A stretch of DNA of 64,000 nucleotides. Source: Zygnema cylindricum. Lineage: Eukaryota; Streptophyta; Zygnematophyceae; Zygnematales; Zygnemataceae. Positions 29,048 through 59,543 of the stretch are shown here, in pieces. The DNA lies in assembly GCA_037447655.1 (NCBI GenBank), contig JBBHKE010001037.1:1-64000 (forward strand). Reading direction: 5' to 3'. Under the pieces are notes generated by a model. It was not told the DNA's origin. It saw only the letters and a list, made by a program, of their open reading frames with translations, and ran no database searches. A program made the position numbers and the translations under genes. How positions within the stretch are numbered: the stretch's first letter is position 1; every line of letters starts with the position of its first letter.

Positions 29048-29052
29048 TGGAA

Positions 29053-36431: not shown

Positions 36432-36989
36432 GGGTCAGAGAATCAAAGACAGACTCCATGGGTACAGAATTATCTGAAGCTGAGACTTTTCCTCTTGTAC
36501 GACCCTCTCTTTCCGACCCTGCTCTCCAAATCCGTTATCCGGAGTCTCTCCTCCCACCATGATGACAGAGGTAACGAGAGAAATAGTATTGAATGTAACT
36601 AGAGCTCACTTCCAAAATGAGAGCTCCGAAAGTTAAAGCTTCTATCCCCTCTAATCTGAGCAGACATGTGTTCCTTTTTAGTACTCTGCTTTGTCTACGG
36701 GGAGTCTATCGCACTTGTTCCCTCAAAACCCACTGTCCTACTCCAGGGGGTTTCAGTTTACTCCGGAACAGTAACTCCAAAGCAATGAGAACTCCAGATG
36801 AAGACACTAATGCACTACTACGTAGATATATATATAAATGAATATGATTGGCTTTCCAGATTTAACAATATCACCTTGCCCCAGAAAAGAGAATAAAAGA
36901 TAGAAAATGTGAAATGAAGCGAAGGAAGCTTAACATACCCCAGCAATCAACGATGACAATTAGAAAAAGGCGACCCCTCTCCTGATAGT
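36432..36989 (-). repeat. Gypsy E 3' LTR, distal part
   Basis: Matches 56062-56625 (both contain CAGACTCCATGGGTACAGAA, CCTCCCACCATGATGACAGA and TAGATATATATATA). The TATA-like run near 36826 may be the LTR promoter on the minus strand. It ends in ATAGT, the copia B target, and the LTR resumes at 44481. Confidence 0.85.
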
Positions 36990-38000
36990 TGTTGTTTTGG
37001 AAACCTTGAGTTCTCTCTATATCTTGCTGCTATGCTACCATGCTGCGCTAAGTCTGACATCGCTGCTAAAAACCTTGAGCACTCTACACTTGTTGTTGTG
37101 CTGCTATGCTGCTCTGATCTGACATCGCAGTTGCGCTGCTCTAATATCACAGCAGCGGTGACACATCATAGCAGTCATAGCAGTCATAGCAGTCATAGCA
37201 GAGTCATAGCAGCTATAGCAGTCTGCGCAAGAAAGGTGTTCTGAATATGAGTCAGTTTGTGTTAAGATAAATTGACGGGGACATGATTTAGTGAGTATGT
37301 AACTCGAAAGGGAGTACACATATTCGGTGCACTTCAGGCACACGTGTCGGTCCGTGAGAAAGTCAAGTTTGGTTGTTCTAGAAGAAAAGGTACAGTTACA
37401 TTTGAGGACCAAAGTTACACGTGGAGGTTCATCTTCGGTGATGAAAGAATACGTGGAAAGCGGACGAAGTCCGCCATCATTTTTGAAGAGAAGTATTGAC
37501 TGTAGCGTCATTTCAGCGGATGAACTTTAACCGCGTACTATTTCATTTCTAGCGGCTGTCTGATTGGTGTAAATAATTATGTGCATTCGACGGTGGGATT
37601 TTGTTAATGAAAAATTAGTGTACCAATTGACCACGCTAGTTGTAGTACGGTGTGATCAACTGTAGGCTCACTTGTATATATAGGACTTGAATTACTTTAA
37701 GAGAAGTAGGATTGTTGTGTAGGAAAAACTGCGAAGCAGTTTTTAGGTGTGTTTGAATTATAATATCATTGTGATCTTTTGGCAGAACTTTGTGAAATTC
37801 TGCATGTGGGTTCTTTGGTGTATATTTTATATTGTGGCAAATTTGAAGACCTAGGGTGTGTCTGGTTTGTTTGGGGCTTCATTGTGAAGTTGGTTGTTTG
37901 TGGGATTTCGTGAGAGTTTCCTCTTTGCACAATAGATTATCATGGCAACTGCCGGTGCTTCTTCATCTTCTTCAGTGGCACCAGCTGCCTCAAATCAACA
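36990..38000 (+). repeat. Copia B 5' LTR
   Basis: Begins TGTTGTTTTGGAAACC and ends CAAATCAACA. It contains a CATAGCAGT-type minisatellite (about 37165-37215), a TATA box (GTATATATAGG near 37672) and, in its last 59 bp, the gag ATG (37942) with about 20 codons. The segment 37029-37067 is shared in inverted orientation with gypsy F LTRs. Confidence 0.9.
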
Positions 38001-38399
38001 GGTCACGGGCCCTCCCTCACGGATCCCGGTGTTTAATGGGCAAAAGTATCTTTATTGGGGGGATTTGACTAAGTCTTATTTGAAACAAGTGAAATTATAT
38101 GATGTGATTTCGATATTCTTCCGGATACGAATCCGAAGTTTGGAAAGAAAAATGAAGATGCATTGCATGTGTTGAAGTTACTTTTGTCAGAAGATCTTAA
38201 CATGACATATATCAATATCTCTACGGCATCTGAAATATGGAAGGCCTAGAGTGAATCTTATGTCTTAGCTAGTGAGCAGAATGAGGTTGTTACTGCTGGA
38301 AAAATTTGGGACTATAAATATACTGGAGGTGACATGAACTCATATTGTAATGGCTTGAAACTTCTATTATCGGAGAATGCATGTTCCGGGGGGAGTTTT
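37942..38399 (+). pseudogene. Copia B gag, first part
   Basis: Starts at ATG 37942 inside the LTR. A Ser/Ala-rich leader encoded by the LTR runs into Q-V-T-G-P-P-S-R-I-P-V-F-N-G just past the junction at 38000/38001, then Y-L-Y-W-G-D-L-T-K-S-Y-L-K-Q-V-K. A frame break near 38110 and stops follow, but gag homology continues to L-S-E-N-A-C-S-G-G at 38385. It is cut at 38400 by the LTR of the inserted related copy. The same gag resumes at about 39623. Confidence 0.82.
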
Positions 38400-39137
38400 T
38401 GTTGTTTTTAAAAAGCTTTAGTCCTCTTTATGCCTCAGCTGTGAGAGAGAGCTGTTCAGGACTTAAGCTATTTTTGGTTGAGTTCGGTTCAGTACTTACC
38501 GGAATTAGTGTGACAGTGAAGTTGGGAGTTCACGGTTCATTCACACTTGGGACACGTGTCGTCACTTGGGAGAATGCGTGAGTATGTCCTCCGTGGACGT
38601 ACGGAAATTCGGCAGGACCACTGGACTTCGTGAAGTCAATTCTACGGTGCCAAATCCTCTAATCGGACCGCTGACAACCGCCGCCAACAAATAGTGACGA
38701 GGCGTGACTAGATCATTATCACTTTACGTTGTCTGAACTTCGGTGTAAATATTTGTGATAGAATGTTAGATGTACGGCTGGAATGCCTCCGTACAGCTTA
38801 GTGTAGTTTCGGTGTATAAAAGTAGGACTTAGTGAATTTGATTTTTAGGAACAAATGATATGAAAACTGTACACTCAGTTTTATGTAATTTCATTTCTAC
38901 ATATCTCACAGATTTGTGAGCGGAATTGATTGAAATTTTGTGTGTGTGTTTCTTTGTATGTTATCTACATTGTGGCAAATTTTCAGGACGTTTGGAGCGT
39001 TTTTCTGAAAGTTATAGTCTGTCAAAGTTGCTGTTCAGGCATCGGTATTTGTGGAAGCTTCCTCTCTTGATTTGTTCTACGATGACTACTGCTGCATCTT
39101 CTTCATCTTCAGTACCAACACTTGTCTCAGAACAACA
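38400..39137 (+). repeat. LTR of related copia element C, internal to B
   Basis: 738 bp from TGTTGTTTTTAAAAAGC to GAACAACA. The start and end resemble the B LTR (TGTTGTTTTGG... and CAAATCAACA), but the middle differs, so C is a sister family. It includes a TATA box (GTATAAAAG near 38814) and again encodes the gag start (ATG 39082) in its last 56 bp. The next bases, GGTCACGGGCCC, are the same as after the B LTR. Confidence 0.83.
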
Positions 39138-39622
39138 GGTCACGGGCCCGCCTTCACGAATTCCGGTCTTTGATGGACGTGAATATCTGTATTGGGCAGA
39201 TTTGGTTAAGTCTTACTTCAAGCAAGTGAAACTTATCGATGTGTTAAATGGATCATTGGCAGAATCTGATGCCAGTTTTGATCAGAAAAATGACTAGGCT
39301 TTGCATTTAGTAAAGCTTATGATATCAAAAGAATTGCATATGACATATATTAATGTTGCAAAGGCATCAGATTTGTGGGATGCATTGAAATCTTCTTATG
39401 TTAAAGCTAGTGACCAGCATGAGATTATAACTGCTGGTCAAATCTATGAGTATAAGTACACAGGTGGTAGCATGGTGGAATACACTAATCGGTTTTCGAA
39501 TGTTACTGTCAGAAAATGCATGTTCTGGGGGGACTTTCTCCCATTATCATCAGGCCATGATTCTCCTAAAGGGGCTTCCTAATGAATATAAAGGAGCCTC
39601 AGATGAAATGAAAAAATTGTCT
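39082..39622 (+). pseudogene. Gag start of copia element C
   Basis: M-T-T-A-A-S-S-S-S-S leader (LTR-encoded), then Q-V-T-G-P-P-S-R-I-P-V-F-D-G-R-E-Y-L-Y-W and capsid sequence. There is an in-frame TAG at 39295-39297 and a frameshift near 39490-39500. The C-derived gag runs to about K-K-L-S-N (39622). There it joins a second, slightly different copy of the same gag motif (Q-A-M-I-L-M-R-G-L-P-T-E-Y), which I take as the resumption of B. Confidence 0.75.
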
Positions 39623-40632
39623 AATCATCAAGCTATGATTCTAATGAGAGGGCTTCCTACTGAATATAGAGGAGCACCAGAGCAGCTAAGACGGTTAGAG
39701 AAGAGTAAATGGGAAATATCACTAGCTCTGGCTTATATCCTAGACGAAGAGGCAACTCAGATAGCATTAAATGGTGGTCAATTAGTGGTTGCTTACAATG
39801 CACAGACATATAAGCCGGCTGGTTTTTCTGGAAACAGAAACTTTACCCCCAATCCGAATTATAAGCAATATGATAGGTGTGTCTATTGCTTTGGTCAAGG
39901 TCATGTTTTCCGGCTGTGTCCGACATTTATAAAAGCGTGTGAAACAGGAATTTATCGTGCGGGATGGAGGGTGCGATCGAAGGATTCATCACCAAAATTT
40001 CCGACATCAAAATTGCCGATTAAAAATGCGGCATTCCTTGCATTTGATGAGACGTCACAAGATGAACGAGCGGAAGAAAAGAAAGATGTGGTCAGATTTC
40101 CGCAATCAGATGATGAGGAGTTCTTTGCTCTTGCAAAAGATCTCATGGAGGGACCTCGAGAGAACGGATGGATTATGGACTCCGGATGCTCCTCCCACAT
40201 GTGCGGCAACCGGGCTTACTTCAAAACACTTACTCCAATTCCCACTCGTCAGGTTTATTACGCGGATGACAGCGGTGTGGAGGCTACGGCAAAGGGAAGC
40301 GTGGAGTTAGCATGTGACATCAATGGTCAGATTGTAAAAAGAACCTTGCATGATGTTCTCTATATCCCAAAGTTTACAAAAAAATTGTTTTCCACTTCGG
40401 TAGCAGAAATGAAAGGTTTTGAAATTTTACAAAAGAATGGGAAAATGGTACTAAGCAAAGATGAGAAGGTAGCTTTGGTAAGAACTAGAGGCCCAAACTT
40501 GTTGTACCGGATGGACTTGGCTAATGAAATTGACTTTGCATACTCTAGTGTCCTTTCGGAAAATGTATTGTGGCATAAGAGGCTCGGTCATGTTCATCAT
40601 AAAAGGCTTGATAAAATGAAAAGCAAAATATG
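39623..40632 (+). pseudogene. Copia B gag end, protease, pre-integrase
   Basis: Open over about 1 kb. Capsid end (A-L-A-Y-I-L-D-E-E), zinc knuckle CX2CX4HX4C (C-V-Y-C-F-G-Q-G-H-V-F-R-L-C, 39878-39919), acidic stretch and protease with intact D-S-G-C (Asp codon 40178-40180) are visible. The pre-integrase H-K-R-L-G-H-V-H-H (40573) follows. It ends in a frameshift at about 40630. This is the best preserved coding block of the copia elements here. Confidence 0.87.
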
Positions 40633-41712
40633 ATAGATGGTGTTAAATTAGGACAAACATATTCCCATGTATGTGATGGATGTGCTTTGGGAAAACTTCA
40701 TAAGCTGCCACTACCTCAGACAGCGGATAACCGGGCAACGGATTTGCTGCAAATTATTCATTCGGATGTATGGGGGCCATCAAAAGTTCCTTCACTTAGT
40801 GGCAACCGGTTTTTGGTCACTTTTACGGATGACTTCTCAAGATATAGCAAGGTTTACTTTATGAAAGAAAAGACTGAAGTGCTCACTCACTTCAAGCATT
40901 TTCGGGTATGGGCCGAAAAACTTCATGGGAAACCGATCCTTTCCCTTCGGTCCGACAACGGAGGGGAATATATTTCTCATACATTCTTTGAATATTTAAA
41001 AGACAATGGCATTTCTTGGCAATTTACAGTTCCTTATACTCCGGAACAGAATGGAGTATTCTAAAGACTCAACCGAACTCTAACAGAAAGTGCAAAATCT
41101 ATGTTACTAGATAAAGGAATAGATTTCAAATTTTGGGGTGAAGCTTTCTCGTGTGCGTCGTATATTAGAAATAGAATAGAGACTAGAGCAGTAAAAGGGA
41201 AAACACCATATGAAGTGTGGACCGGAAGAAAACCGAATGTTAGTCACTTTCGAGTTTTTGGGAGTAAATGTTTTATTTTGGATAATTTCCCTATTTCTAA
41301 GCTTAGTCCAAAATCGATTCCAGGAATTTTTATAGGTTATGATGATGAATCCGTGGGCTATAGAGTATTTAATAGGGATAGGAATACTCTTCAGACTGCT
41401 AGAAATATTCAGGTTAAAGAAGAGAGCAGATCGGTAGATGTTTTTGGTATGACAGATTTTGAAAAAGATTCCAAAATCAAAGAATATGTTATTTTTGAAA
41501 GTGTTCCTCTCGCTTCTTTTAGTCCCACTTTGGACCCTCCGGCTGGTCCCCTTGTGGAGAATCCTCCTCCTCCTCCACCACCTCCTCCTCGGCGGCAACC
41601 TACGGATCCAACAATTCTAGCCTCAGATTTTCGGGGGGGAAAAAGGCAAAGCAGCAGGCTGCGACACTGCGAAGCTGCGCTATTTTCTGTCGGATCAGTG
41701 GATCTGACTTAA
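40630..41712 (+). pseudogene. Copia B integrase
   Basis: Zinc-binding C-D-G-C (40669), core with H-S-D-V-W-G-P (40760), F-T-D-D-F-S-R-Y and L-R-S-D-N-G-G-E-Y (40950). The sequence that should carry the catalytic Glu has an in-frame TAA (41062-41064) directly before R-L-N-R-T. The frame then continues with S-C-A-S-Y-I-R-N, W-T-G-R-K-P-N-V and G-Y-D-D-E-S-V-G-Y-R-V. A Pro-rich run (P-P-P-P-P-P-P, near 41570) and G-G-K-R-Q-S-S-R follow before a TAA at 41710-41712. Confidence 0.87.
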
Positions 41713-41855
41713 AACTGCGACGCTGCGAAAATACGAAGCTGTGATGCTGCGAAGCTGCAAAGCTGCGACGGTCGAAGCTGCAAAGCTGCGACGCTGCGAA
41801 GCTGCAAAGCTGCGACGCTGCGAAATTGCGAAGTTGCAAAAGTGCTCTATTATCT
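41705..41855 (+). repeat. GCTGCGA/GCTGCAAA minisatellite in pol
   Basis: About 150 bp built from GCGACGCTGCGAAGCTGCAA-type units lies between the integrase and reverse transcriptase of copia B. In A1 and A2 the same place encodes a normal linker. Stops flank it, so it probably broke the frame. Similar GCAACGCAGC words occur in element D (59320-59480) and in the F and B LTRs. Confidence 0.8.
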
Positions 41856-41862
41856 GCAAACA

Positions 41863-42800
41863 TGATGGAACCAGTCACAATACAGGAAGCCTTTTCAGCT
41901 CCGGAAAAAAATCAATGGATCGCTGAGGCTAAAGATGAAATGCGACCGATAATGGAGGCTCAAACTTGGGAGCTTGTGGAGCTTCCACCAGACCGAAAAG
42001 CCATTGGCTGTAAGTGGGTCTTTAAAGTAAAGTTGAATCCACATAACTCTATTGAAAGATATAAGGCTAGGCTTGTTGCTAAAGGCTATAGTCAGAAGGA
42101 GGGAATTGACTATGAAGAGACTTTCTCTCCGGTTGTCCGATTTCCAACTGTTAGAATTTTGTTATCCTTAGCGGCCATTGAGAATATGGAACTACATCAA
42201 ATGGATGTAAAGACAACTTTCTTGCATGGAGATTTAGAGGAAGTAATTTATATGAAGCAGCCTGAAAGGTATGAAAAGACTGGAAAAGAAAATCTGGTCT
42301 GTAAACTGTTGAAATCCCTGTATGGTTTGAAGCAGGCTCCACGTCAATGGAACCTAAAAATAGATGAGTTTCTTACAAGTCTAGGATTCGTCAAGATTAG
42401 CTCAGATCACTCAGTCTATGTTATGGAAGGGAAAGATGGGATTATCTACATTGCGGTATATGTAGATGATTTGCTGTTGTTAAGCAAGTCATTAAATGAA
42501 ATTAACAAAATAAAGGCAGCCTTGAATTCAAGATTTGAGATGAGGGACTTAGGTGAGGCAAAGTATATATTTGGAATTTAAGTAGAAAGGGATAGAGATA
42601 GGAGAACAATCCATCTAACGCAACGTGAAGCGATAGGAAATGTGCTTGAAAAGTTTGGCATGGCTAAGGCAAACGGAAGTGCCACTCCCATGGAATTTAA
42701 GCAGAAAGTGGAAGGCATGGAGACCGATGGAGGAATCATTTTTGACGATACCTTGGAGTCAGGGGAGGCAGATTTTATGGCCACCATTCCATACCGACAG
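41863..42800 (+). pseudogene. Copia B reverse transcriptase
   Basis: Starts near M-M-E-P-V-T-I-Q-E-A-F (41863). It has C-K-W-V-F-K-V-K-L (42010), Y-K-A-R-L-V-A-K-G-Y, Y-E-E-T-F-S-P-V-V-R-F, H-Q-M-D-V-K-T-T-F-L-H-G-D-L, S-L-Y-G-L-K-Q-A-P-R-Q-W and the catalytic Y-V-D-D (42459-42470). One in-frame TAA (42579-42581, where the family has Gln) interrupts it, consistent with a CAA to TAA transition. Otherwise the domain is open. Confidence 0.9.
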
Positions 42801-43450
42801 ATTGTTGGTAGCCTAATTTACTTCATGAACTGCACAAGGCCAGATATTGCGGCAGCAGTTGGCGATTTGAGTCGAAGTTTGAAGAATCCAAGAAAAACAG
42901 ATTGGGAGGCCGCAAAGAGGGTTCTTCGGTACCTTGCAGGAACACGGAATCTTAGACTTGTTCTCGGTGGAGATGAAGTCAAAATTCAGACATGGAGCGA
43001 TGCTAGCTATAGAGACATGCCAAGCCGCCGTTCCACCACTGGATTCATTTTGAATATTGGAACTGGAGCATGCTACTGGAGCAGCAAGCTTCAAAAGGTA
43101 ACAGCTCAGTCTACAATGGAGGCTGAATATATGGCAGCAAGCTCAGCTGTCAAGGAGTTACTATGGGTGAAGTCGCTCCTCCAAGAACTTCATTTTATGC
43201 AATCCGGACCTCAAATAGTGTGGTGTGACAACCAAGCAGCTATTGCGATTGCATCCAACCCGAGTCATCACTTCAAAAGCAAGCACATTGACATTAAGCT
43301 GTATTTTGTAAGAGAGATGGTGATGAACAGAATTTTAAAGCTAAGTTAACTTCCGGATGAGAAGATGGTAGCAGATATGATGACTAAGTCTTTACCTGCA
43401 CCTAAGTTGAAGTTCTGTAGAGAGGAATGTGGACTCAGTGGCTGAGAGAG
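42801..43450 (+). pseudogene. Copia B RNase H and pol C-terminus
   Basis: G-S-L-I-Y-F-M-N-C-T-R-P-D-I (42810), W-S-D-A-S-Y-R-D (42994), M-E-A-E-Y-M-A-A (43117) and C-D-N-Q-A-A-I-A-I (43225). H-H-F-K-S-K-H-I-D-I follows. An in-frame TAA at 43347-43349 precedes the final M-V-A-D-M-M-T-K segment, which ends at the TGA near 43444. Function is that of RNase H in reverse transcription. Confidence 0.88.
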
Positions 43451-43453
43451 TCT

Positions 43454-43468
43454 AAAGGTTTAGGGGAG
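43454..43468 (+). promoter_or_regulatory. Copia B polypurine tract
   Basis: AAAGGTTTAGGGGAG lies directly before TGTTG of the 3' LTR. This is the expected position of the plus-strand primer. Confidence 0.8.
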
Positions 43469-44480
43469 TGTTGTTTTGGAAACCTTGAGTTCTCTCTATA
43501 TCTTGCTGCTATGCTACCATGTTGCACTAAGTCTGACATCGCAACTAGAAACCTTGAGCACTCTACACTTGTTGCTGTGCTGCTATGCTGCTCTGATCTG
43601 ACATCGCAGTTGCGTTGCTCTAATATCACAGCTGGGCTGACAGATCATAGCAGTTATAGCTGTCATAGCAGTCATAGCAGAGTCATAGCAGCTATAGCAG
43701 TCTGCGCAAGAAAGGTGTTCTGAATATGAGTCAGTTTGTGTGAAGATAAATTGACGGGGACATGATTTAGTGAGTATGTAACTCGAAAGGGAGTACACAT
43801 ATTCGGTGCACTTCAGGCACACGTGTCGGTCCGTGAGAAAGTCAAGTTTGGTTGTTCTAGAAGAAAAGGTACAGTTACATTTGAGGACCAAAGTTACACG
43901 TGGAGGTTCATCTTCGGTGATGAAAGAATACGTGGAAAGCGGACGAAGTCCGCCGTCAATTTTTGAAGAGAAGTATTGACTGTAGGGTCATTTCAGCGGA
44001 CGAACTTTAACCGCGTACTATTTCATTTCTAGCGGCTGTCTGATTGGTGTAAATAATTATGTGCATTCGACGGTGGGATTTTGTTAATTAAGAAGTAGTT
44101 TACCGATTGACCACGCTAGTTGTAGTACGGTGTGATCAAGTATAGGCTCACTTGTATATATAAGACTTAGATTACTTTAAGAGAAGTAGGATTGTTGTGT
44201 AGGAAAAACTGCGAAGCAGTTTTTGGGTGTGTTTGAATTATAAAATCATTGTGATCTTTTGGCAGAACTTTGTGAAATTCTGCATGTGGGTTCTATGTTG
44301 TATATTTTATATTGTGGCAAATTTGCAAAACAAGGGTGTGTCTGGTTTGTTTGGGGCTTCATTATGAAGTTGGTTGTTTGTGGGATTTCGTGAGAGTTTC
44401 CTCTTTGCACAATTGATTATCATGGCAACTGCCGGTGCTTCTTCATCTTCTTCACTGGCACCAGCTGCCTCAAATCAGCA
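43469..44480 (+). repeat. Copia B 3' LTR
   Basis: 1012 bp matching 36990-38000. It ends CAAATCAGCA followed by the ATAGT duplication. It carries the gag ATG and leader codons too (44422 onward), which run straight into the flanking E LTR. Confidence 0.9.
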
Positions 44481-45550
44481 ATAGTATCGTCAAAAGGTAT
44501 GGTACTCCTGCAACCTTCGGTGTCTACAGCTTGGAACCAACCAGACTCTTTTCGGTTCAAAATAGCAAAAGTTTAAAATCACCCAAAAGGAAGATAATAC
44601 CAACTACTTGCGCGGACTGTGATTTCCACAAAACATAGTTCCAAAACCAAGATGGCAATAGAGTCGAAACAACACAAAGATTCTCCAAAAGAAGGTTTGT
44701 TGGAATTTTTGAGGGTTTTCTCGAAGATAGTACTGAAAAGCAACCTATCTTCTTCGACCCCAAGTGCCTTTTACATCAAAGTTTGTCAAATTGCTGGTCC
44801 AAAAGTCAAAGCTACGCTATTAAGCAATGAGCGGCAAGCAATTCTAATTAAACTGACACAAAAAAAAATAATCCGTACTACACTCTGGGCAAAAAGTTTT
44901 GCTCTGGATTGCAGCTAGATTTGCGGCCGGAAGTAATTATTCGGTCCACTATTATAAGACAAAGTCTTGAAAATGACACTAACTTGCCAAACTTTGACCT
45001 AACGTTATTAATGGAGAAAAAGTCAATTGAGACTGAACTAAATTCCTAATGACGGCTACCAACATAATCTAAATGCAAATCTGGAAAGTTATGTGGCAAT
45101 CCACAATGTACCCACCAGGAGGGAGGGTGGCAAATGGTTCCCTGTAACATAATTACAACCTTAGGGACGGTAGAACTTTGTCGTCCGGCCTTTGTCAGGC
45201 GCCAAATAAAGTGCCTTCCGCTCAATTTAGGAAATACAAGGGTCTCGTCCAGCTTGGTGCACTCGCTCCTCCGTACTCTGAAGCGTACAGGGTAAAAAAA
45301 GCCCGGAAATCCTTCGTGATATAAAGGTATACCTGAAAAGCACAAGAGCTTGATAGCTGTCGAGCATGCCTGATTAACGTGAAGAAAGGGCCCATAGCCC
45401 GAATTCGTTGGCATTGGAGTCCTGGAAATAAACCCCAAATGCGAATGCTTCCCAAAATGATGATCATGCACACTGCTGCCCACATCCCTCTCATAGATAT
45501 GCATGCAAAATAGGAGAGATGCTTGGACAGTGAATAGGGATGAGGGAACG
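44481..45550 (-). repeat. Gypsy E 3' LTR, proximal part
   Basis: Matches 56620-57507 (shared TCGTCAAAAGGTATGGTACT, CCAAAACCAAGATGGCAATA and AGGAAATACAAG segments). The inner boundary is uncertain, between about 45524 and 45559, close to a purine-rich stretch on the minus strand (45560-45610) that is the likely polypurine tract. Open frames on the minus strand here have no family motif and I do not call them genes. Confidence 0.75.
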
Positions 45551-45813
45551 AGAAGGCAAAAGTTATCCCCTCCCGTTTCCTTCCCCCCCCCTCTGCGCGG
45601 GGGAAGGGATTTGGGTCTCGGTAATCGGGCTGATATCCTAATTTCCCCCCCTCTTAGTCAACCGTCACTAAGATATAAAAACAATTACCTGCTCCATTCG
45701 CAATTCCCATAAAACCAGATGCTGGAGTGTAGAGGGTGTGGCTCCCAAGAGGAAGGGAGACAAGCTGAATGCCAACACTGACCACACTGATTGCAAACGA
45801 ATATGTTGTGCAA

Positions 45814-47000
45814 CTAGGAAGACTGATTGCAAGCTGATGAATAGAAAGGGGGATCGGCAAAGTAAGTTAAGTGGAAAGTAGGTTCATCTTCCAATCCCCG
45901 AAGATGGTAAGGGGCTACATTGATCTGATTCTCTTTAATTCGTCGACCATCCTTTCCCTCCAATGTAAGAACCCATTTGTTGGAAACATCAACCACTTTC
46001 AAAATTACTCTCCCGACAGATTTATCCAGCGTGTCCTTCTTCTGTTGCATCCGATATATAAAGTCCCATGGCATAAATTGTCGTCGCCGAGGCACATAAT
46101 TCCCCCTCTTGCGTTGAGAATACCACAACTGATCTCGATGTTGAGCCGCCTGCAAAGTGCCTATGGCGAGAGGCATCTCTTGGTGGAATATCTTGGCTTT
46201 GTCAGCGATCAATTTTTTGACTGTCCCCTTGTCATCCATCTCCGAAGGACCACCGCTTGGGTTGATGCAGCTCCGGGCAAGATAGGATGCCATCCAAATA
46301 GAATGAAATAAGGGCTATACGAGTGGAGAGAAGCCTGCTTGCTGAATCTATAACCCATAGCAATCCAAAGCACTTTTCTGTCCCACTCCCCCAAATCTTT
46401 TTCAACCGCATATTTTCGTAGTGACCGCTTCCTTGTCTATACGCACCTTTCGGCCAAACCATCGGCTTAAGGGTGGTCACGGCTGGTCAGCCGATGGTCG
46501 ACTAGGCATTTTTCCAAGAGGTTGGAAAATTCTCCGGCAAATTCGGAGCCTTGGTCGGTTAGAACTTCTGCAGGCGCCCCGAATTGGGCGAAAACCCTTT
46601 GCAAAAAGGCATCTGCAATTGCCTTGGAGTCCTTCGAGGGCAACACCACTAACTCGATCCACTTGGAAAAATGTTCTATGATGACCAGCATTAAACGGTT
46701 CCCCCGCCTGCTGGTCGGAAGAGGTCCCAAAAGATCCAACGACCATCGATAAAACATCCCCTAGGTAGGAAGTGAATGAAGCTCAGTCGCTCCTTTTTTG
46801 TCAAAAGCAATCTTAACTGAATCGCATGAGGAGCAAGTCTACACAATTCGGTTGACTAGGGTCTGCAACCAATGCCACCAATAGAAGCGTGTAACCAGGG
46901 AAGTGGTCCGCTTTTGCCCAAAGTGTCCACATTGCCGATGGAGATTAGAAATCAGAGTTTCTCGGTCAGAGGGGGAGAGGAACCACTTTCCTCATGCCAT
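45814..47000 (-). pseudogene. Gypsy E integrase
   Basis: Zinc finger with L-H-R-Q-C-G-H-F-G-Q-K-R-T-T (about 46940) and C-S-S-C-D-S. The core has S-L-D-L-L-G-P-L-P (46740), L-T-D-Q-G-S-E-F (46570) and, after a stop, D-G-L-A-E-R (46470), so the three acidic residues are identifiable. The C-terminal domain (46293-45814) has K-K-D-T-L-D-K-S-V-G-R-V, V-S-N-K-W-V-L-T-L-E-G-K-D-G-R and an N-V-A-P-Y-H end. No chromodomain is recognised. Several stops and shifts. Confidence 0.83.
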
Positions 47001-47860
47001 CTGACCATTTCCGAAGGAGAACGCCTCTGTCGTAAGCATACGTAGCCATCCCGGTCTGTATTCGGGATAATTGAATTCCAGTCAAGTGGGGAAGAGGCGA
47101 CCCCTGCTGGATAGATTGGAGAGCATCAGGGTCGTTCTAGAAGTCTTTCCGTCTGGCCCCTATGGGCGCCTGCCCCTCCACGTCGGCCGAGAAAGTTGAC
47201 AGTTCCCCCCCAGATTGGGGAAGCGATATGAAAGCGGAGGATGCTCGAATGATTCCCATACTAATCTCAGGGTCCTCATCATGCTGAGCCCTTGTAGAAT
47301 TTATGGTGGAGGGATTAGGATTCTGGCTAAGTCAGTCAACATTCCCATGGATTTCCCCTGCCCTATGAAAAATGTCAAAATCATATTCCTGTAGGATAAG
47401 AACCCATCAGGCGAGTTTGCTGGTTAACTTACTATTTTCTATGATCCATTTAGGGGTTGGTGATCCGTAATCAAGGTAAAATGGATTCTGTACAAATAAG
47501 ACCAGAAATGCTGGATGGCCCAAACCGCCGCGAGTAACTCTCCCTGGTAACTGCTATAATTCCCCTCAGCCCTGGTGTTGCTCCGGATGGCGTAGGCCAC
47601 CACACATTCATCCCTGGCATCATCAACTAGAGCCAGAATTGCTCCCAATCCAAACGTACTCCAATCGGTATGAAACATGAAAGATCTGTGGTGATCAGGC
47701 ATCTAGAGACCGGGGTGCTGCTTCAGAGCATCTTTCAAGAACTCGAAAGAGATCTGTTGTTTTTCGGCCCACTACCACTCTTGATCTTTCCGGAATAGTT
47801 GGTTAAGGGGCTTAGCGTGATTACTGAACTCATGAATAAACTGCCGATAGTAATTGGCCA
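47001..47860 (-). pseudogene. Gypsy E RNase H and connecting region
   Basis: The tether L-G-L-A-N-Y-Y-R-Q-F-I-H-E-F (near 47840) leads to RNase H in frame 47702-47439: F-H-T-D-W-S-T-F-G-L-G-A-I-L, Y-S-S-Y-Q-G-E-L-L-A-A-V-W-A and F-T-L-I-T-D-H-Q-P-L. The downstream part, up to the integrase zinc finger, is frame-broken (M-A-T-Y-A-Y-D-R-G-V-L-L-R-K near 47040). Confidence 0.82.
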
Positions 47861-48740
47861 GACCTAGAAAGGTGCGAAGGACCGAGATGTTCGTGGTGGG
47901 GGAAGAGCATCAAGGGCTCCCACCATGACCATGTGGGGACCCACAGTCCTGGGAGTCACCTCATGTTCGAGGTAAATGATTTTGTGTACCCCAAAAATGC
48001 CTTTACAGGACATTTCCCGCTTCGAGTGCCGGTCCCGACCGATATGCTCAAATGTTAGATCTAATGTCTTTGAGAATATAATAACATCATAAATATAGAC
48101 CGGCATGTCGATTTCGAGTGCTCGCCATTGCCCGTTGGAATTTTGCCGGTGAATTCTTAAGCCCGAAGGGCATGTAAATCCATTTATATAGTCTAAAACC
48201 TGCCCAAAATGCAGTTTTCTCCTTGTGCTTCGGTTGCATGGCAATCTGGTGGAAACCATTCTTCATGGCCAGAGTGGAATATATAGTGGCGCCAGCAAGA
48301 GAGTCGAATATCTCTTCCGGAGTCGGCATCGGATACCGGTCAGAGATGGTGGCCGTGTTCAGCATGCGACAATCTCCGCACATCCGGAAATCTAAAGTCT
48401 TCCCAAACGAGTCCTTCTTGGGAGGGAGAACTATCAGGGAAGCAAACCCATGAAGTCCAGTACTTTCCTGAACCAATTCGGCTTCCACCAAAGTCTGGAC
48501 TTTAGCCATGATGAATTCTTTTTCTTGAAAACGAAAGGATACTGCTTCTGCCAAACAGTAGTCGTCTCGTCGATCAAATCATTTCGAAAGGTGTTCCTTT
48601 GTAAATACCGACATCTATTTCTGAACATGAGATAACTTGCTTGTTTTTCGGCCAATAGCTCGGAGAGCTGCGCCTTTTGTTGAGGATCCAACTTCTCCCC
48701 TAGGGTCAATCCATTTTCCCAGGCTCTACAGCAGCCCAAG
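47861..48740 (-). pseudogene. Gypsy E reverse transcriptase
   Basis: A linker G-E-K-L-D-P-Q-Q-K-A-Q-L (48700) precedes RT. The RT has L-V-Q-E-S-T-G-L-H-G-F-A-S-L-I-V-L, D-F-R-M-C-G-D-C-R-M-L-N, D-R-Y-P-M-P-T-P-E-E-I and Y-S-T-L-A-M-K-N-G-F-H-Q-I. F-G-L-K-N-S-P-A-K-F-Q-R-A-M follows. The catalytic box near 48080-48100 reads Y-I-Y-D instead of Y-I/V-D-D. A frame break separates it from F-Q-R-A-M. It follows the methyltransferase domain in the same polyprotein order. Confidence 0.87.
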
Positions 48741-49019
48741 CCTGCTGCGGTCTACCCCAGAGGTTAATGTCGAATTCCAATCCTACTTGTGGATCTGCCT
48801 CCACTCTTTCGGCTAGGACTCTACTGGTGACAACTTCCGCTAAGCTGTTGCCATCTGAGCCCCTGCCCCCCCCACAGGGAAAACGTGCGGTGGTGAAATG
48901 TTAATTTTTCTTCTCCTTTCTCTCCCCCCCTCAAGCTGGAAAGTTTGCCTGCATCGTTAACAACTGAGGAGCTTAAAGGTAAACAACCTTGGATTTCGGG
49001 GACTTGAGATTGGAAAAGG

Positions 49020-50133
49020 CGAGTACATGCTTGAGTACCCATGTGATCAAATTCAAGTCCATACTCTTTCTAATTAGGCTGCACCTATGATGGTCTGAGA
49101 TACCTAGTGCTGCCGTGGTGTCTTTACGAAATCCCATTGCTTCTTCCCGTTCTGCAATCGTTGGTGTTGTCTTGATTCTTGCCATACTGTCAAAAATCAT
49201 TCCCGCTGCTCCTTTCCAAAAAGCGTGACTGTGAGGGAAAAAAACCAATGTCGGGAGTGCTTTTAGTGGTAATAATAGTTTGTGGCACCGAAAAAAAAAG
49301 AGAACGGCCTGGTCCTGTCACAGGGGTGGCCATCCTGCCTTCCCCAAGTATTTGCTACACCAAATTCTGAGGGTCGAGAATTTGCTTGTCTAACAGTCGT
49401 CGGAGTAACGGAAGCGAGATCATATTGGTCCAATATGCCTTTACTCTATGTGCACGGGATCCCATTTGTGCGGCGTCGAAAACTAAGGGAGCTTCTAAAA
49501 TCCTGGTTACGTGATTCCAGCTGTCCACAACCTGTTTCTTTTTATCATCTCCCAGGTTGACATTTTCCAGAACGTACCCCACCGGTATGTCCTGATGCTG
49601 TTGAATCCACGTGATTAATTCGATTATCTGGTGAAATGTTCCACTTCTGCGGTCTTGATGCCCTTTTCATTGTCCCGCTCGGGAGTATTCTTGAAAAGGC
49701 TTGCCTGCAAACACCAAATCCACTCTTCCTAAACTGTCTAGATGAGGCGCTAGAATGTTGTCTACATTTTGGGGAACACTTGGTGAGCTGTGGAAATGGC
49801 TTTCACTGGAAGCTGTTGAGGATATGGGTGATGAAGTTGGTGGAGGCGGTGTTCGCTGAAAGCCCGCGCCTCAGGTGATATTTCCACGGCCGCGTATGAC
49901 TCCACCAGATATCCTGTTTTCAAAACCGCTTCCAAATCAAAACTAATTCCCAAAAACAAAGATAAAATACGCAGTCTGGAATTGGGGACTGCAAATGACA
50001 CCACTTGTCGATTAAACTCTTCGTTATCGGACTTGGTTTTGAAAGCATCAGACAGTTGTGTAGAAACGACTTCCTTCAATGTTAAGGCTGAAAATGCCTT
50101 ATCCACTCCCCGCCGAAGTTTTGCTACCTGCAA
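49020..50133 (-). pseudogene. C5 cytosine DNA methyltransferase domain in gypsy E pol
   Basis: In intact members this enzyme transfers a methyl group from S-adenosylmethionine to cytosine C5. Motif I is L-R-I-L-S-L-F-L-G-I (49942-49974) and the following strand A-A-V-E-I-S-P-E-A is at 49867-49893. Motif IV is D-L-V-F-A-G-K-P-F-Q (about 49691-49720), where the catalytic Cys of P-C-Q is Phe (codon 49694-49696). Then R-S-G-T-F (about 49640), E-N-V (49559-49567) and R-A-H-R-V-K-A-Y-W (49430-49456). The C-terminal part has E-R-E-E-A-M-G-F (49129-49152) and M-D-L-N (49051-49062). Breaks: frameshift near 49768, TGA 49667-49669, a stop near 49352, frameshift near 49200. It resembles the DRM/DNMT3 side of the family most, by eye. 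It sits between protease and reverse transcriptase. Confidence 0.88.
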
Positions 50134-50741
50134 TAATCTATTCTTATATTCCTCTTCCCACCGCTTGGAAATTGGGAATTGCTAGATTTCTTTGGCGATA
50201 TCTGTAGAACTGCCAAACAGTTCCGACGGAGATGATGTAGTGTACACCGGGTAGCAACCAGACACAGGGACATTTGTCTTCCCCCGGTTCCATAAATCCA
50301 AAGGAACCACCACTTTGGTTCCTTCCAGATTCTTGGGGTCCTGGACGGTAGATTGTTCCTTCCACACGCTGAAACTCATATTGAGTCGGGTCCAAGTGGC
50401 CATTCCCAGCAGAATTTTGAATTAAGTTCCTTCCACCACCAAGAAGGGAAGCACAATTTTCACGCGTTGGCCTCCGTCATCAGAAAACTCGATTTCCATG
50501 CCTTGATTATTCCAAGAACTTGTTCACTGCCGCTGCTTACGGTGCTTAAGCAGATATTGCTTGGGCAGATTTCGGGCCAGAGTTCCTCGGGCATTTTTTG
50601 CAAAGCGGAGGTGGTAATGAGGTTGGGGAGAACTTTGGTGTCGACCCCAGCGTCGTGGTATCCCCCGTACCCGTTGAGCTTCAAGTTCCTGGTCTCGTTC
50701 AGTATAAGAGCCACTGATGAGGCTTTGTAGTCCATATCCAC
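50134..50741 (-). pseudogene. Gypsy E protease and linker to methyltransferase
   Basis: The frame 50741-50460 looks like a retropepsin-type domain: D-A-G-V-D-T-K-V-L-P (around 50654) in place of the usual D-T/S-G, and L-G-I-I near its end, like the flap/second Gly motif. A second frame (50403-50182) is contiguous with the methyltransferase and has the V-V-V-P-L-D-L-W and N-V-P-V-S-G-C motifs, of unknown role. The protease call is tentative because the motif is not canonical. Confidence 0.55.
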
Positions 50742-51609
50742 TAAAAGGGGTTTTGGGATCGGTGGACAGAAATATTGCTGTTGGCAGAGTGGTCCTGTCT
50801 ACCCCCCCTTTACAGAGTGGATCTCCTCTCCCAATGCATGAATGAGGATTTCTTCAGGCAGGTTGTGGGAGGATGCTAAAGTCTTCATGTGTGTGAGGGC
50901 ATAGGGCATGAGGTGCCGGACTAGCATGACAGCCGGTTTCGAGGATGGATCTCTTTCTCTCGCAACTGTTTCTCGTTCTATTGATTTTCGAAACCGGGAG
51001 GCAATTTAGGTTTGGGAGGAAGAGATGGGGGTTGATTAGGTTTGATTCCTAGGCCGATGTCGCTGTTCAACATTACTGACCGGGGAGTAAATGACAAAGG
51101 CCTTGTAGCTTTCTGGTTGTGATCGCGATGACCCATTTTTTGTCTGTCCTGTCTTTACATTGAGGTGGAACTGCCGAGATGGCGGCGGCTGTCTCCCACC
51201 CCAACATTCCAAGCTCCGGACAGAAAGGTTTGGGCATGGTGGGCATTTGGGGGTTCCAAATCCCAGCCCAATAAGTCGCCATCTTTGGCACCCGTGGTGC
51301 GTTGAAGCTCAAGCTCAGTGAGCTTCTGCAACAACTCCTGTTTGTGCTTTTGGAGTGGTTGTGCTGTTGTGAGAGGAGCATGCCGGGAAGAAGATCCCAG
51401 GGGGAGGGTAACCAACTCTGCAGCCATTGCGGCTAGCAGCTGACTTTGTTGCTGTATGATAATCTCCGGCGTAAGCCTGGCCGGAGCAACCGGGGCTCGT
51501 TCAGATTTCTTCGGCATGGACATAAGTTGGCGCCCCCAGGAGTAAAGTAGTTAGAGGGGGAGAGGGTTAACGGCTGTTTCTCCTTCTCCAGTAAACAAAA
51601 CAAATTGCA
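50742..51609 (-). pseudogene. Gypsy E gag-protease spacer, coiled-coil-like
   Basis: The frame 51523-51155 is Gln/Leu/Ala-rich (I-I-I-Q-Q-Q-S-Q-L-L-A-A-M-A-A, then K-H-K-Q-E-L-L-Q-K-L-T-E-L) and could form a coiled coil. No catalytic motif is seen. It is overlapped by other frames and broken further downstream. Assignment to the polyprotein is by position. Confidence 0.5.
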
Positions 51610-53102
51610 TCATTTCCTTGGGGTACTCCCATTTTTCCAGAAGCATTGCCCTTCCTTATGCCCTAGAAATCCACAAGCTTCGCACTTGGCGCCCTCGGTG
51701 GTATATTTACTCCGGATTTTGTTGGAGATTTGAGCGTCATCAAACTTTGGAAGTTTGATTTGCCGCAACTGAGATTGGGACATCTTAGAGGTTTTGCTCC
51801 GTGGAGTTGGACGAGAAGTTTCCTTGGTTATCGGGTTCTTGTCCTCTCCCCTCCCTCCCTTGAACTTTTCTTCCTGTTTCAAGGTCATTTCTGCACGTTC
51901 TTTCTCCCATTCCTTATGTTTCAAAGCCATCTCCGATTTAAGTTTCTTTGTGTAGTGCTTCCACCCATGACCCGGTTGTTGGCAATTCATGTAATTATAC
52001 AGAAATTCTCGCTCATTTGCTCCCATAGCTGGTTCTGACCTGCTGTCAGCCTCTTGCTTCCCTTTAAGCTTCCGAATAAGTTTGAAGTTCACCCTGTTCC
52101 TCTTCATTCAAGGAGGTTTCGTGTCAGCCACTTGTTTCCTTTTAAGCTTCTAAAAATTTTGAAGTTCATCCTGTTCCTTTTCATTCAAAGAGGTTTCCCT
52201 GGCGAATCTTGCAAATTTTGTTCGGCTTTGCCGGTTTCACCGCCTTCCCTTGCCTCACTCTAGACAAAGTGGTCATATAATTTATCGCCACCGCGAGATT
52301 TCTTTGGCGAGGGATTGATGTCTTCAATTGCCTATTTGACAATCCAGTTATCTAGAGCAGTGTGCCAGTGATAAAGTATTTAGTTGCCATTGCCGCAAGG
52401 TCAATCGTGGACAGTTTCGTTTTCTGACAAAGGCTTGAGAGTTGGTTAAGAGAGAGTCTGGGGAGTCTCGTTCTTTAAGCATTGGAATTCCGTGAATTCC
52501 TTGATTGCTTACTCATTCCTCTCTGTGTAGAGGAGTCTCTAGATGTTCAGCAGAGTGGTAGAAGGGTTGGGATTAACAACCATGCGAGTTGCTGCCTGGA
52601 TTGCCTGAATGACTTGCAGCTGGTTAACTTAGGCACTTCCTTCTGCTTGCAGTTTCATGTCCTATGTGAAGGTAGCGGTTATAGGGGTTGCAGCCGCTGC
52701 CGCTAAATGAGCTTCCGCTTGCAAGACGGCCGCATCAAGGACCGGATCTGAGATCTTGATGCTAGGAGCCATTGAAAGTGGTTGACGCTACTTGTAATCT
52801 GCCAACGCCCCTCTTGAAAAGTAGTTGACCATCATGGGGAAGAGGGATGTCTCGAAGTCATCCGAAATGGCTCCTCCCCGGTACTTATTGATTTCGGCTT
52901 GTGTAAGAGATTTCCACAACAACTCGAGATCCAAAAATGCGATCTCCGAGCTATCTCCTGTAAAGATCCTGATATCCCCCATTTCTTTTCTTCCTCTGCA
53001 AGGTTGGTGAAATGGGAAGAGGAAGGACCGGTGGGGCTGAAAAACTGAGCCGTCGAGATGACTCCCGTATCCTCTTCCTCGGAACCAAAACCGTTTCCTC
53101 AT
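51610..53102 (-). pseudogene. Gypsy E gag with two zinc knuckles
   Basis: Frame 53102-52788 has a capsid-like start (M-G-D-I-R-I-F-T-G-D-S). The middle, 52780-52110, is frame-broken but keeps gag-type helices and a duplicated Lys/Glu-rich segment (near 52070-52190). Frame 52107-51610 has a first knuckle N-C-Q-Q-P-G-H-G-W-K-H-Y, in which two Cys positions are Tyr, and an intact CX2CX4HX4C (C-E-A-C-G-F-L-G-H, 51643-51684). A basic Lys/Glu-rich stretch lies between them. It would bind element RNA. Confidence 0.72.
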
Positions 53103-53581
53103 CCGGTAAAAGGTGCTGCCCTAACAGATGTGGATCCCCCTCCCACAGAGGAAGTATTAGCGCCTGAAAATATGGTGGGAGGAAGGATTTTCCCCACTAC
53201 TCTATATCTAGGAGAGTTTTGTTCCTCCCTGAGAATCTGCTCCGCCGATGGGATGTGGAGGCGAGTTCGGTTAAAATGAGGTCTTTGGGGAATGGGTGGC
53301 GACGGAGACGGAGACGAAGACTGTTGGGGCTTGGTTGGATAAGGCGTCTGTTTGTGGGTTCGCCTCCTGGAGGTCTCGGGAGGTGGAGTTCCGAATCTGG
53401 TGGAAGGGGAACGGCTGTAAGGAGGTGTGTAAGCGGGGACGTCGTGTTTGTAAGGTAAAATAGGCGGCTCTCGAGACCCCCAGACTGCTGCAGCGAAAGA
53501 AAGGGATGGTGAAGGGCAGTCCCGGGGCTCTGTAGTAAGAGCCGCGGAGTGAGAGGAAGGAGGAGGAGGAGAAGATGGGAG
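53103..53581. other. Gypsy E, region upstream of gag
   Basis: No family motif recognised on either strand. GC-richer than the flanks, purine-rich on the + strand (GGAGACGGAGACGAAGAC and AGGAGGAGGAGGAG). It belongs to E by position and ends at the GGGAG target of the solo LTR. Confidence 0.5.
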
Positions 53582-54680
53582 TGTTGAAATTTATGTATTT
53601 TCTAGGTCTGTATTGGAAGAATAAATAGAGTGTTGAAAAGGGGTGACTAATAGTTCACTTCTATATTTTAGTTTGAATGTAAAGAGAGAGAAAGAGAGGA
53701 CCAAAGACACGCCATGGATGCCGCATGATTTAGAAGGAGGCAGAATGAATTAGAAAGTATTTTACTAGTTTTAGCAAAATACTGCCCCTGGCCGGATTTG
53801 AACCGTGGTATATAGGCTACTAAAGTAGACCAACGTCTTATCCATTATGTCACTAACGTATCGACACAAGTGGAACGTTTCACGCATATTTAGCTATTGA
53901 TTCAAAGGACTAATTCGCAGCAGACTAACGAAAACGCGCATTAATCACTTCATGCATGGAAGCGAATTGAAGCCCTATAAATATAACTAATCGGACGGCC
54001 ACCATTACAGCCGCCACCCGCAATAAGCATTCGGCGGCCTTTGGGGATAGCGTCACGCGGTGCCACGTGGCGCCACATTATTTGACACCGGAGAAGATGG
54101 GAGGAGGAACCATGGCTCCCGATTTGGCACATGTCACCTTGTAGACCATGTTGTACAATGGCCGTACAATAAGTACATCGCCCATCGTACCTTGTTGTAC
54201 TATATAGTGTTCCTATTGGACTAGGGTTTTGTAGTAGGTAGTCATGAGTAGGCAGACTAAGACCTAGCAATATTTCGGTACCTCTCTCTAAGAGAGCTTG
54301 TAACTATAAAGGTCATCTTTGACCAGCCATAACTTAATGCTCGGGTGAGCAAATTCAGTGATTCTTTTTGCTGCGGACTCGGGGGAGTCTAGGATACACA
54401 AAGGTGTAGTCGGTCAGAGGTTTTTGCGTGTCAGGGTGACACTTATTCAGTGGGAAAGTCAAAGTGGGGAATACTGTCCAAAACACATATTCAAGTTTTG
54501 CATTCTGTGGTGGAACTGAGCACACAGAAGGCCTTCTCTTCACTAGGGTGAAGGTGTATTGGAGTTTTGATTGTCAAGGGATCATTCATTTGGGTTTATA
54601 TCAACTTGGAGTCGGCACTATCTAGATTAGCTTCTTTTGGATTTGCGAATTCTGTGGGCAATGGAGCCCATAGAATTTCA
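53582..54680 (+). repeat. Family A solo LTR in gypsy E
   Basis: 1099 bp from TGTTGAAATTT to CATAGAATTTCA, flanked by the direct repeat GGGAG (53577-53581 and 54681-54685). There is no internal copia sequence, so it is a solo LTR left by recombination between two LTRs. It has the tRNA-like module on the minus strand (TGACATAATGG and GGTTCAAATCC, about 53790-53860) and CTCTCTCTAAGAGAGC near 54281. Confidence 0.88.
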
Positions 54681-56061: not shown

Positions 56062-57507
56062 TTGGTCGGAGAATCAAAGCAGACTCCATGGGTACAGAAT
56101 CCTTTGACAACTGAGACTTTTCCTCCTGTATGGCCCTCTACTTCCGACCCTGCTCTCCAGATCCATTATCTAGAGTCTCTCCTCCCACCATGATGACAGA
56201 GGTAACGAGAGAAATAGTATTGAATGTAACTAGAGCTCACTTCCAAAAAGAGAGCTTCCAAAGTTAAAGCTCCTATACCCTCTAATCCGAGCAGACATGT
56301 GTTGCTCTTCTGTACTGTGCTTTGTCTACGGAAGTCTATTGACTTGTTCCCTCAAAACCCATTATCCTTCTCCTGGGGGTTTTAGTTTACTCCGGAAGAG
56401 TAACTCCAAAGCAATGAGAACTCCAGATGAAGACACAAATGCACTTCCACGTAGATATATATATATAAATAAATATGACTGGCTCTCCAGATTTAACAAT
56501 ATCACCTTGCCCCAGAAAAGAGAATAAAAGATAGAAAATGTGAAATGTAGCGAAGCAAGCTTAACATACCCCAGCAATCAATGATGACAATTAGAAAAAG
56601 GCGACTCCTCTCCTGATAGTATCGTCAAAAGGTATGGTACTCGTGCAACCTTCGGTGTCCGCAGCTCAGAACCTACCAGACTCTTCTCGGTTCCAAACAG
56701 CAAAAAGTCCAAAATCACCCAAAAGGAAGATAGTTCCAACTACCCGCCCGGACAGTGATTTCCACAAAACACAGTTCCAAAACCAAGATGGCAATACAGT
56801 CAAACAACACAAAGATTCTGCCAAAGAAGGTTTGTTGGAATTTTTGAGGGTTTTCTCAAGTGACATTACCGAAAAGAAACTTGTCTCCTTTGACCCCAAG
56901 TGCCTTATACATCAAAGTTTGTCAAATTGCAGGTCCAAAATGCAAAGGTACGCTATTAACCAATGAGCGGAAAGTAAGTGTAATTGAACTGACAAAAGAC
57001 AACATAATCCGTACTACACTCTGGGCAAAAAGTTGTGCTCCGGACTGCGGCTATATCCCCGGCCCGAAGTAATTATTTGGTCCACTATTATAAGACAAAG
57101 TCATGAAAATGACACTAACTTGCCAGACTTTGACTTAACGTAATTAATAGACAAAAAGTCGGCTGAGATTGAACTAAATTCCTACTGTCGGCTACCAGCA
57201 TAATCTAAATGCAAAACTAGAAAGTTACGTGGCAATACACAATGTACCCCCCACGGGGGATGGTGGCAAATGGTTCCCTGTAACGGAATTGCAACCTTTG
57301 AGACGGTAGAACTTTGAGACGGTAGAACTTTGTCGTTCGGCCTCCGTTAGGCGACAAATAAAGTGTGTTCCGCTCAGTTTAGGAAATACAAGGATCTCGT
57401 CCAGCTTGGTGCACTCACTCCTCCGTACTCTGAAGACCGTACAAGGTAAAAAGGGCCCGGAAATCCTTGGTGCTATAAAGGTATGCCTGAAAGCACATGA
57501 GCTTGAC
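56062..57507 (-). repeat. Gypsy E 5' LTR, outer end missing
   Basis: 1446 bp matching the other E LTR after removal of copia B. At 56615-56625 it shows the uninterrupted copia B target (CTGATAGTATCG). Homology to the other LTR ends near 57507, where copia-type gag of element D starts. The outer ~190 bp of this LTR are missing. Confidence 0.85.
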
Positions 57508-57903
57508 ATTGACTTACAAGTATTATTTGCAGAAAATGATTTGGCAGGAGGAAACTTTACAGATGCCCAACAAGCTATATTGTTAATGAGAAGTCTACCT
57601 AAAGAATATAAGAGTGCATTAGATCGATTGACTTTAATTGATATAAAGGATTGGAGCTTAACTGTAACAAGATGTGTTGTTCTAGATGAAGAGGCTATTA
57701 GAAAGGTTATATCAAGTCAGACGAATATAAAAGAATCTAAGTCTCATTTTCAGAAAATTAAAAAGAATAGCGAGTTTGGAGATCGACCAAAGAAATGGTT
57801 TTATTGTAATGATTTGGAACATACCTTCAGGGTATGTCCGTTGTATAAAAGTGCATGTGTTACAGGGAATTTCAGAGATGGTTGGGACAACAACCTAGTT
57901 TGA
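57508..57903 (+). pseudogene. Copia-type gag, element D (5'-truncated)
   Basis: Open frame: L-F-A-E-N-D-L-A-G-G (matching L-S-E-N-A-C-S-G-G of B), then Q-A-I-L-L-M-R-S-L-P-K-E-Y and L-D-E-E-A. It ends in a zinc-knuckle remnant, Y-C-N-D-L-E-H-T-F-R-V-C, that lacks the first Cys, then C-V-T-G-N-F-R-D-G-W as in B. The N-terminal half and 5' LTR are absent. Ends with TGA at 57901-57903. Confidence 0.8.
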
Positions 57904-59320: not shown

Positions 59321-59490
59321 AACGCAGCAGAAGCAGTGGTGAATCAGCAAAAGCAATTCGCGTCGCAACGCAGCATAGCAATGCACCAGAAGCAATGGTG
59401 AATTAATCGAAGCAATTTGCGTCGCAACGCAAAATAGCAACGCAGCAACGAAGTATAGCAACGCAGCGGAAGCAGTGGTGGCGTTTGACA
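59320..59490 (+). repeat. GCAACGCAGC-type imperfect minisatellite
   Basis: Imperfect units of about 60 bp with AGAAGCARTGGTGAATYA and GCGTCGCAACGCAGCATAGC. The GCAACGCAGC word relates it to the minisatellite in copia B pol and the modules in the F and B LTRs. Confidence 0.7.
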
Positions 59491-59543
59491 CTTGAAACAG
59501 TGCAATTTTTATTACGGTGCACGAAACTAAATTTTTGGGAGAG

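Follow-up and report, generated by a model that had tools for sequence, protein, structure and literature searches.

Why would a retrotransposon carry an enzyme that methylates DNA? DNA methylation is a weapon that hosts use against transposons, and an element with a methylating enzyme of its own turns that weapon round. The question is raised by a 64,000-nucleotide stretch of Zygnema cylindricum DNA (the window). There a Ty3/gypsy element, which we call element E, carries a decayed C5 cytosine methyltransferase between its protease and its reverse transcriptase (RT), at about 49983-48976 of the minus strand.

The methyltransferase survives as three pieces (Table 1), of which the middle one lies in the next frame from the motif I piece and contains one TGA (49667-49669). 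A sequence-only reading of this DNA had placed a C5 methyltransferase inside a Gypsy element, between its protease and RT, and had named the lack of a significant profile match as evidence against it; PF00145 matched the middle piece at 27.6 bits (E 2.4e-6), above its curated cut-off of 22, which bears the proposal out. The middle piece also matched DNMT3 chains in the PDB (1.5e-5) and phage C5 methyltransferases (1e-7), and the motif I and C-terminal pieces gave weak or no matches when searched singly. A profile built from seven phage enzymes found nothing comparable outside the methyltransferase region in the six frames of the window, and its second-best place in the window was the motif I piece, in the right order and on the right strand (E 0.42). 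Because the seven phage enzymes had been picked as matches to the middle piece, this motif I match is the sole unbiased check. The three pieces show a linear, unpermuted motif order, and the domain is almost certainly a methyltransferase. Motif IV of this copy has Phe where the catalytic Cys is expected; with its three frame pieces, internal stop and Phe for Cys, the window copy is a methyltransferase pseudogene. Protein database searches returned no relatives at E up to 1, nor up to 10, and scans of viral contigs with three pieces returned none.

Table 1. Positions of element E features in the window, and copies assigned to each lineage in the assembly
Feature	Position or copies	Strand	Basis or remark
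5' LTR of element E	56063..57508	(-)	self-BLAST direct repeats; ends read, TG...CA on + strand
Gag piece, zinc-knuckle-like motifs	51610..52107	(-)	by eye; Pfam 0.057, below cut-off
Protease region (approximate)	50380..50717	(-)	transferred from nucleotide alignment with copy L016
TAG stop, then CAA TTC	50182..50184	(-)	between protease and methyltransferase; present in other copies
Methyltransferase, motif I piece	49765..49983	(-)	minus-strand frames and phage-enzyme profile; in frame with protease tail
Methyltransferase, middle piece (motif IV, ENV, RAHR..YWTN)	49355..49843	(-)	PF00145, PDB DNMT3, phage enzymes
Methyltransferase, C-terminal piece (ERE...GF, MDLN)	48976..49224	(-)	minus-strand frames; weak when alone
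Reverse transcriptase	48087..48578	(-)	PF00078 2e-12
RNase H	47439..47702	(-)	PF17917 8.1e-21
Integrase core	46467..46760	(-)	PF00665 9.7e-14
C-terminal PHD-like finger remnant, one internal stop	45691..45840	(-)	tblastn with L016 C-terminus
3' LTR of element E, first part	44481..45355	(-)	self-BLAST, junctions; remainder beyond nested copia
Copia element nested in element E 3' LTR	36990..44480	(+)	5-base duplication ATAGT on both sides; Ty1/copia domains
3' LTR of element E, second part	36433..36989	(-)	self-BLAST, junctions; another copia LTR abuts at 36432
Lineage E	L015, L016, L019, L025, L026, L027		window joins in tree, UFBoot 84
Lineage E2	L010, L029
Lineage S	L011, L017, L018, L020-L024, L028, L030
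ECQ copies	L011, L017, L018, L020, L022, L024, L028, L030		e.g. methyltransferase at L017:4346-5302

The surrounding element has the Ty3/gypsy order of protease, RT, RNase H and integrase on one strand, with the protease placed through the alignment with copy L016, and is flanked by direct LTRs. The LTRs are 90.0% identical (K2P 0.108 over 1425 columns) and those of the copia element nested in the 3' LTR differ by K2P 0.040, so element E is older than the nested copia. A shorter LTR pair (44481-45353 with 56616-57506) was replaced by the split LTR from self-BLAST. The integrase zinc-binding part just before the core scored 0.012, below its cut-off, and the window itself gave no Pfam protease match. 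By eye we saw no target-site duplication, primer site or polypurine tract in this old copy; we found no inverted repeats of at least 60 in 43000-60000, and an Rfam scan of the window gave nothing at gathering thresholds. Old and dead, element E belongs to a large Ty3/gypsy lineage that encodes gag, protease, a DNMT3-type methyltransferase, RT, RNase H, integrase and a PHD or PHD-like finger. The core of the sequence-only reading of the element stands; what it had overlooked is that the copy is dead, that the stop before the methyltransferase is conserved, that a PHD-type finger follows the integrase and that a copia element splits the left LTR.

Several other features lie in and around the element. 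The gag region contains a two-copy, 77-base tandem repeat (52044-52197), and upstream of gag the segment 53958-54466, which is 73% similar to 13140-13638 and partly similar to other LTR-like places in the window, is probably an insertion within element E. The nested copia is fairly young, with long pol open frames, and its pol reading frame contains an 8/24-base tandem repeat (41711-41837). Elsewhere, 29000-30374 (+) is a fragment of another Gypsy element, RT/RNase H/integrase-like by eye, and 1-618 (-) is a host exon of GT47 exostosin type (PF03016, 1.2e-19), as would be expected of a plant or streptophyte alga.

We searched the window's own assembly (352.8 Mb, 2689 contigs) for further copies. 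PF00145 gave 123 scored matches among 782 candidates, and the middle piece of the window gave, as the best 150 of 1195 candidates, matches (the window among them) that were all 59-100% identical, with E no higher than 3.5e-50. Merged, the two lists hold 236 distinct methyltransferase places among the matches listed, a figure that includes at least one host gene and possibly alleles and that serves neither as an exact count of insertions nor as a lower bound on them. The methyltransferase is followed by RT on the same strand in 17 of the 19 other places read (L010, L011 and L014-L030); both exceptions were kept in the denominator, namely L027, with protease and methyltransferase and no RT, and L014, which has no element methyltransferase and by eye holds a host CMT/MET1-type exon. 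With RT as the starting point, a methyltransferase lies just upstream in 15/15 best loci, the window's own included. Among the first 90 of 150 RT matches listed (2571 candidates), 50 have a listed upstream methyltransferase and 40 do not; all seven of those 40 that were read (L032, L033, L036, L040, L042, L044 and L046) have one. The 17 of 19 places and the 15 best RT loci make the methyltransferase segment a regular part of these elements, and the other finding that the sequence-only reading had named as contrary, E copies without the segment, fails against the places read, where other copies do have it.

The methyltransferase sequences of L015 and L025 are identical, as are those of L026 and L027; these pairs may be recent copies, alleles or duplicated contigs, and the place count may therefore overstate insertions. 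Several copies retain long open frames, the 12 open frames checked, which include those relied on here, hold no N, and one frame, 2395 residues long, takes in everything from a gag zinc knuckle through the PHD finger. What looked like an open frame of 5743 residues at C961 (L046, G000:C961:70000-79000) was rejected as a run of N, and given that run, open-frame lengths in genome tables need a check for N.

The places read include 18 element copies, which fall into three lineages, E, E2 and S. The catalytic Cys of motif IV is kept in 15/15 other copies whose sequences were compared; the motif reads PCQ in E/E2 and ECQ in S (8/8 S sequences compared), and better-kept copies retain the ENV/ENI and AHR motifs. 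PF00145 scored 48.9-53.7 bits on copies L016, L017 and L010, against the cut-off of 22. For lineage E, the dN/dS of the methyltransferase is 0.12-0.39 in 13 of 15 pairs, the other two pairs being identical. For lineage S, dN is 0.11-0.21; of the 28 pairs, 21 have saturated dS and the remaining seven give dN/dS of 0.09-0.32. When L034 was compared with four relatives, dN/dS was 0.12-0.15 for the methyltransferase and about 0.04 for RT, both at dS near 1; at equal dS, the dN of the methyltransferase is three to four times that of RT. The methyltransferase is under purifying selection, and the Glu that replaces Pro before the catalytic Cys in the ECQ copies, under that selection, is unusual for a C5 methyltransferase.

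As to where the enzyme came from, we built a tree on 129 columns, with the element enzymes set beside phage enzymes, mammalian DNMT3 and a single host exon, which is CMT-like. The element enzymes (lineages E, E2 and S, and the window copy) fall into one clade with UFBoot 99, and this clade joins mammalian DNMT3 (UFBoot 98), apart from the phage enzymes and the host exon; the sampling is thin and the branches are long. The best PDB matches of the element enzymes are DNMT3A/B; the middle piece by itself gives alignment scores that do not tell DNMT3 and phage enzymes apart. By motif order, PDB ranking and the tree, the element enzyme groups with DNMT3, and the single clade suggests that a DNMT3-type gene was captured once, before E, E2 and S split. 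A DRM identity is rejected on the linear motif order, and a phage or bacterial enzyme as nearest kin is rejected on the tree, which places the element enzymes with DNMT3. The PCN that motif IV shows in the DNMT3 chains compared is absent from the element enzymes, which have PCQ (E/E2) or ECQ (S) in its place.

How the enzyme might be expressed is indicated by the junction with the protease. In the window, the frame that leads from the tail of the protease on into the methyltransferase has two stops in 233 codons, compared with a mean of 11.7 for 233-codon stretches in the window, of which 53/2532 have two or fewer. A stop stands at the same codon in 9/9 E/E2 copies with the junction in view, the window included, so the TAG in the window is conserved and does not reflect decay. 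The sequence is TAG CAA TT in eight of the nine E/E2 junctions, L025 has a second stop at the next codon, and the S copy L017 has no stop at the junction. Stop codons between gag and pol are known in other plant LTR elements, and a UAG with CAA-UU behind it is similar to the context in which tobacco mosaic virus reads through its stop. The viral readthrough motif is CAR-YYA, which the CAA TTC after the window stop fits at five of six bases, a mismatch that counts against readthrough. On this context and conservation, readthrough at the UAG in E/E2 is probable, with room for doubt.

At the other end of the polyprotein, behind the integrase, we detected a PHD finger. PF00628 scored 40.1-44.3 bits in the six S copies scanned, above its cut-off of 24, and of the ten S copies tblastn found the finger in eight; the retrieved stretches of L011 and L024 stop short of that region. 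Lineage E has a related PHD-like stretch, at 23.8 and 19.9 bits just below the PF00628 cut-off of 24, and a related PHD-like finger is also present in the E2 copy L029. The window retains a remnant, which the L016 C-terminus matched by tblastn with 67% over 94 residues (45972-45691, 1e-38). Neither the main text of PMC5890265 nor a literature search, outside which most subscription journals lay, yielded a Gypsy element with both a methyltransferase and a PHD finger. The PHD class is described as at least nine-fold larger in Zygnema cf. cylindricum SAG 698-1a than in other Zygnema strains, and Copia as the main repeat of that strain at 29.8% (PMC9915684). If the present host is that strain, PHD-bearing retrotransposons may lie behind its enlarged PHD class.

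We propose that in E/E2 ribosomes would mostly halt at the UAG and yield Gag-protease, and that occasional readthrough would yield small amounts of the methyltransferase-Pol part. The methyltransferase may then be packed into the particle alongside RT and integrase and methylate the new cDNA or the integrated copy, which would resemble host DNA from the start, and the PHD finger may, like the chromodomain of chromoviruses, tether the integration complex to a histone mark. The enzyme might help the element to evade or reshape silencing, as the sequence-only reading had suggested. Without the methylation of the element's own cDNA, we regard this explanation as a whole as reasonably probable. Marking of the element's own cDNA by its enzyme is a tentative proposal. 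Other elements in such genomes do without the enzyme, an argument made in PMC5890265 that weighs against the explanation as a whole. The boldest form of the proposal is a self-contained epigenetic retrotransposon, with a DNMT3-type writer and a PHD reader flanking RT and integrase on one polyprotein, UAG readthrough in E/E2, marking of its own cDNA and steered integration, which would thereby have spread to hundreds of places; we consider it rather unlikely in full. The writer-reader pair would be likened to DNMT3 with its ADD domain, built anew.

Constraint on the enzyme shows that it is useful, not what its target is, and the enzyme could instead act on the host side, methylating chromatin round new insertions, or rival elements, as self-restraint or tolerance and not on cDNA. 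Self-restraint is offered as one possibility in PMC5890265, and a PHD-type finger on the same polyprotein suits action at chromatin; a place in pol beside RT and, in E/E2, behind a stop suits a low-abundance particle protein instead, and we judge host-side action unlikely, if a serious contender. It is more doubtful again that the protein has another substrate or has lost catalysis, serving in RNA binding or methylation or in the structure of the particle. The best candidate would be the S lineage, with ECQ in motif IV of all eight sequences compared, and the methyltransferase dN at three to four times that of RT at the same dS points the same way, but the kept Cys, ENV/ENI and AHR motifs and the low dN/dS make this improbable. 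A chance insertion or inert passenger confined to the window copy, where the domain is indeed broken, is refuted by the same position in 15/15 best RT loci, by 17/19 places read and by purifying selection, and has practically no standing left.

A single previous Gypsy case in one alga had left open whether such an element is a curiosity. There are now at least three lineages in one genome, 236 places among the matches listed, strong constraint on the enzyme and, within its own polyprotein, a finger of reader type; what a transposon gains from methylating DNA therefore becomes testable in one species. Annotators should be aware that transposons may inflate the DNMT and PHD gene counts of such genomes.

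Two comparisons place the parts of these elements. Chromoviruses are Ty3/gypsy elements that bear a chromodomain, a histone-reading module behind the integrase; in the present elements a PHD-type finger replaces the chromodomain and a methyltransferase is also present, so that the likeness is one of analogy. Animal DNMT3 carries an N-terminal ADD domain. Plant and animal DNMT3 have the linear motif order in common with the element enzymes, with PCN in motif IV of the DNMT3 sequences compared and PCQ or ECQ here. The flanks of the element enzyme, with gag and protease before it and RT, integrase and PHD behind, are unlike the architecture of plant and animal DNMT3, the plant enzyme carrying DUF3444 (PMC6453930).

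The sequence-only reading was also right that retrotransposon-borne C5 methyltransferases are a known class (PMC5890265). Members of the DNMT3 family that sit within LTR Copia and DIRS elements are reported from streptophytes and dinoflagellates (PMC12344493, citing the 2018 paper). SymbioDIRS-Dnmt3 and SymbioLINE-Dnmt of dinoflagellates are likewise retrotransposon-borne, but belong to the DIRS and LINE classes and are described as independent captures; Symbiodinium retrotransposon DNMT3 domains, including that of SymbioDIRS-Dnmt3, methylate CG in yeast (PMC5890265). The closest known system, likened here by its description, is KnitGypsy-Dnmt3 of Klebsormidium nitens, which has the LTR Gypsy domain set, a Dnmt3-type methyltransferase in Pol and Ka/Ks below 0.2 (de Mendoza et al. 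2018, PMC5890265). As described there, it has in common with the present elements an unrearranged Dnmt3-type domain in a Gypsy Pol, purifying selection and a streptophyte alga as host. Its enzyme gave no methylation in yeast, a result that the authors judged inconclusive, human DNMT3B having also failed (PMC5890265). It differs in its repeats, which are DIRS-like (PMC5890265, Fig. 4 legend) where element E has ordinary direct LTRs, and in copy number, which in K. nitens is below that of Symbiodinium (PMC5890265) as against 236 places among the matches listed here. The words PHD, gag and readthrough are absent from the main text of PMC5890265, and relative to KnitGypsy-Dnmt3 as described, the present elements add the conserved stop (E/E2), a PHD or PHD-like finger at the C-terminus, and the ECQ lineage. 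The kind is thus known from Klebsormidium, and copy number, conserved stop, PHD finger and ECQ lineage together make a variant of it that looks new.
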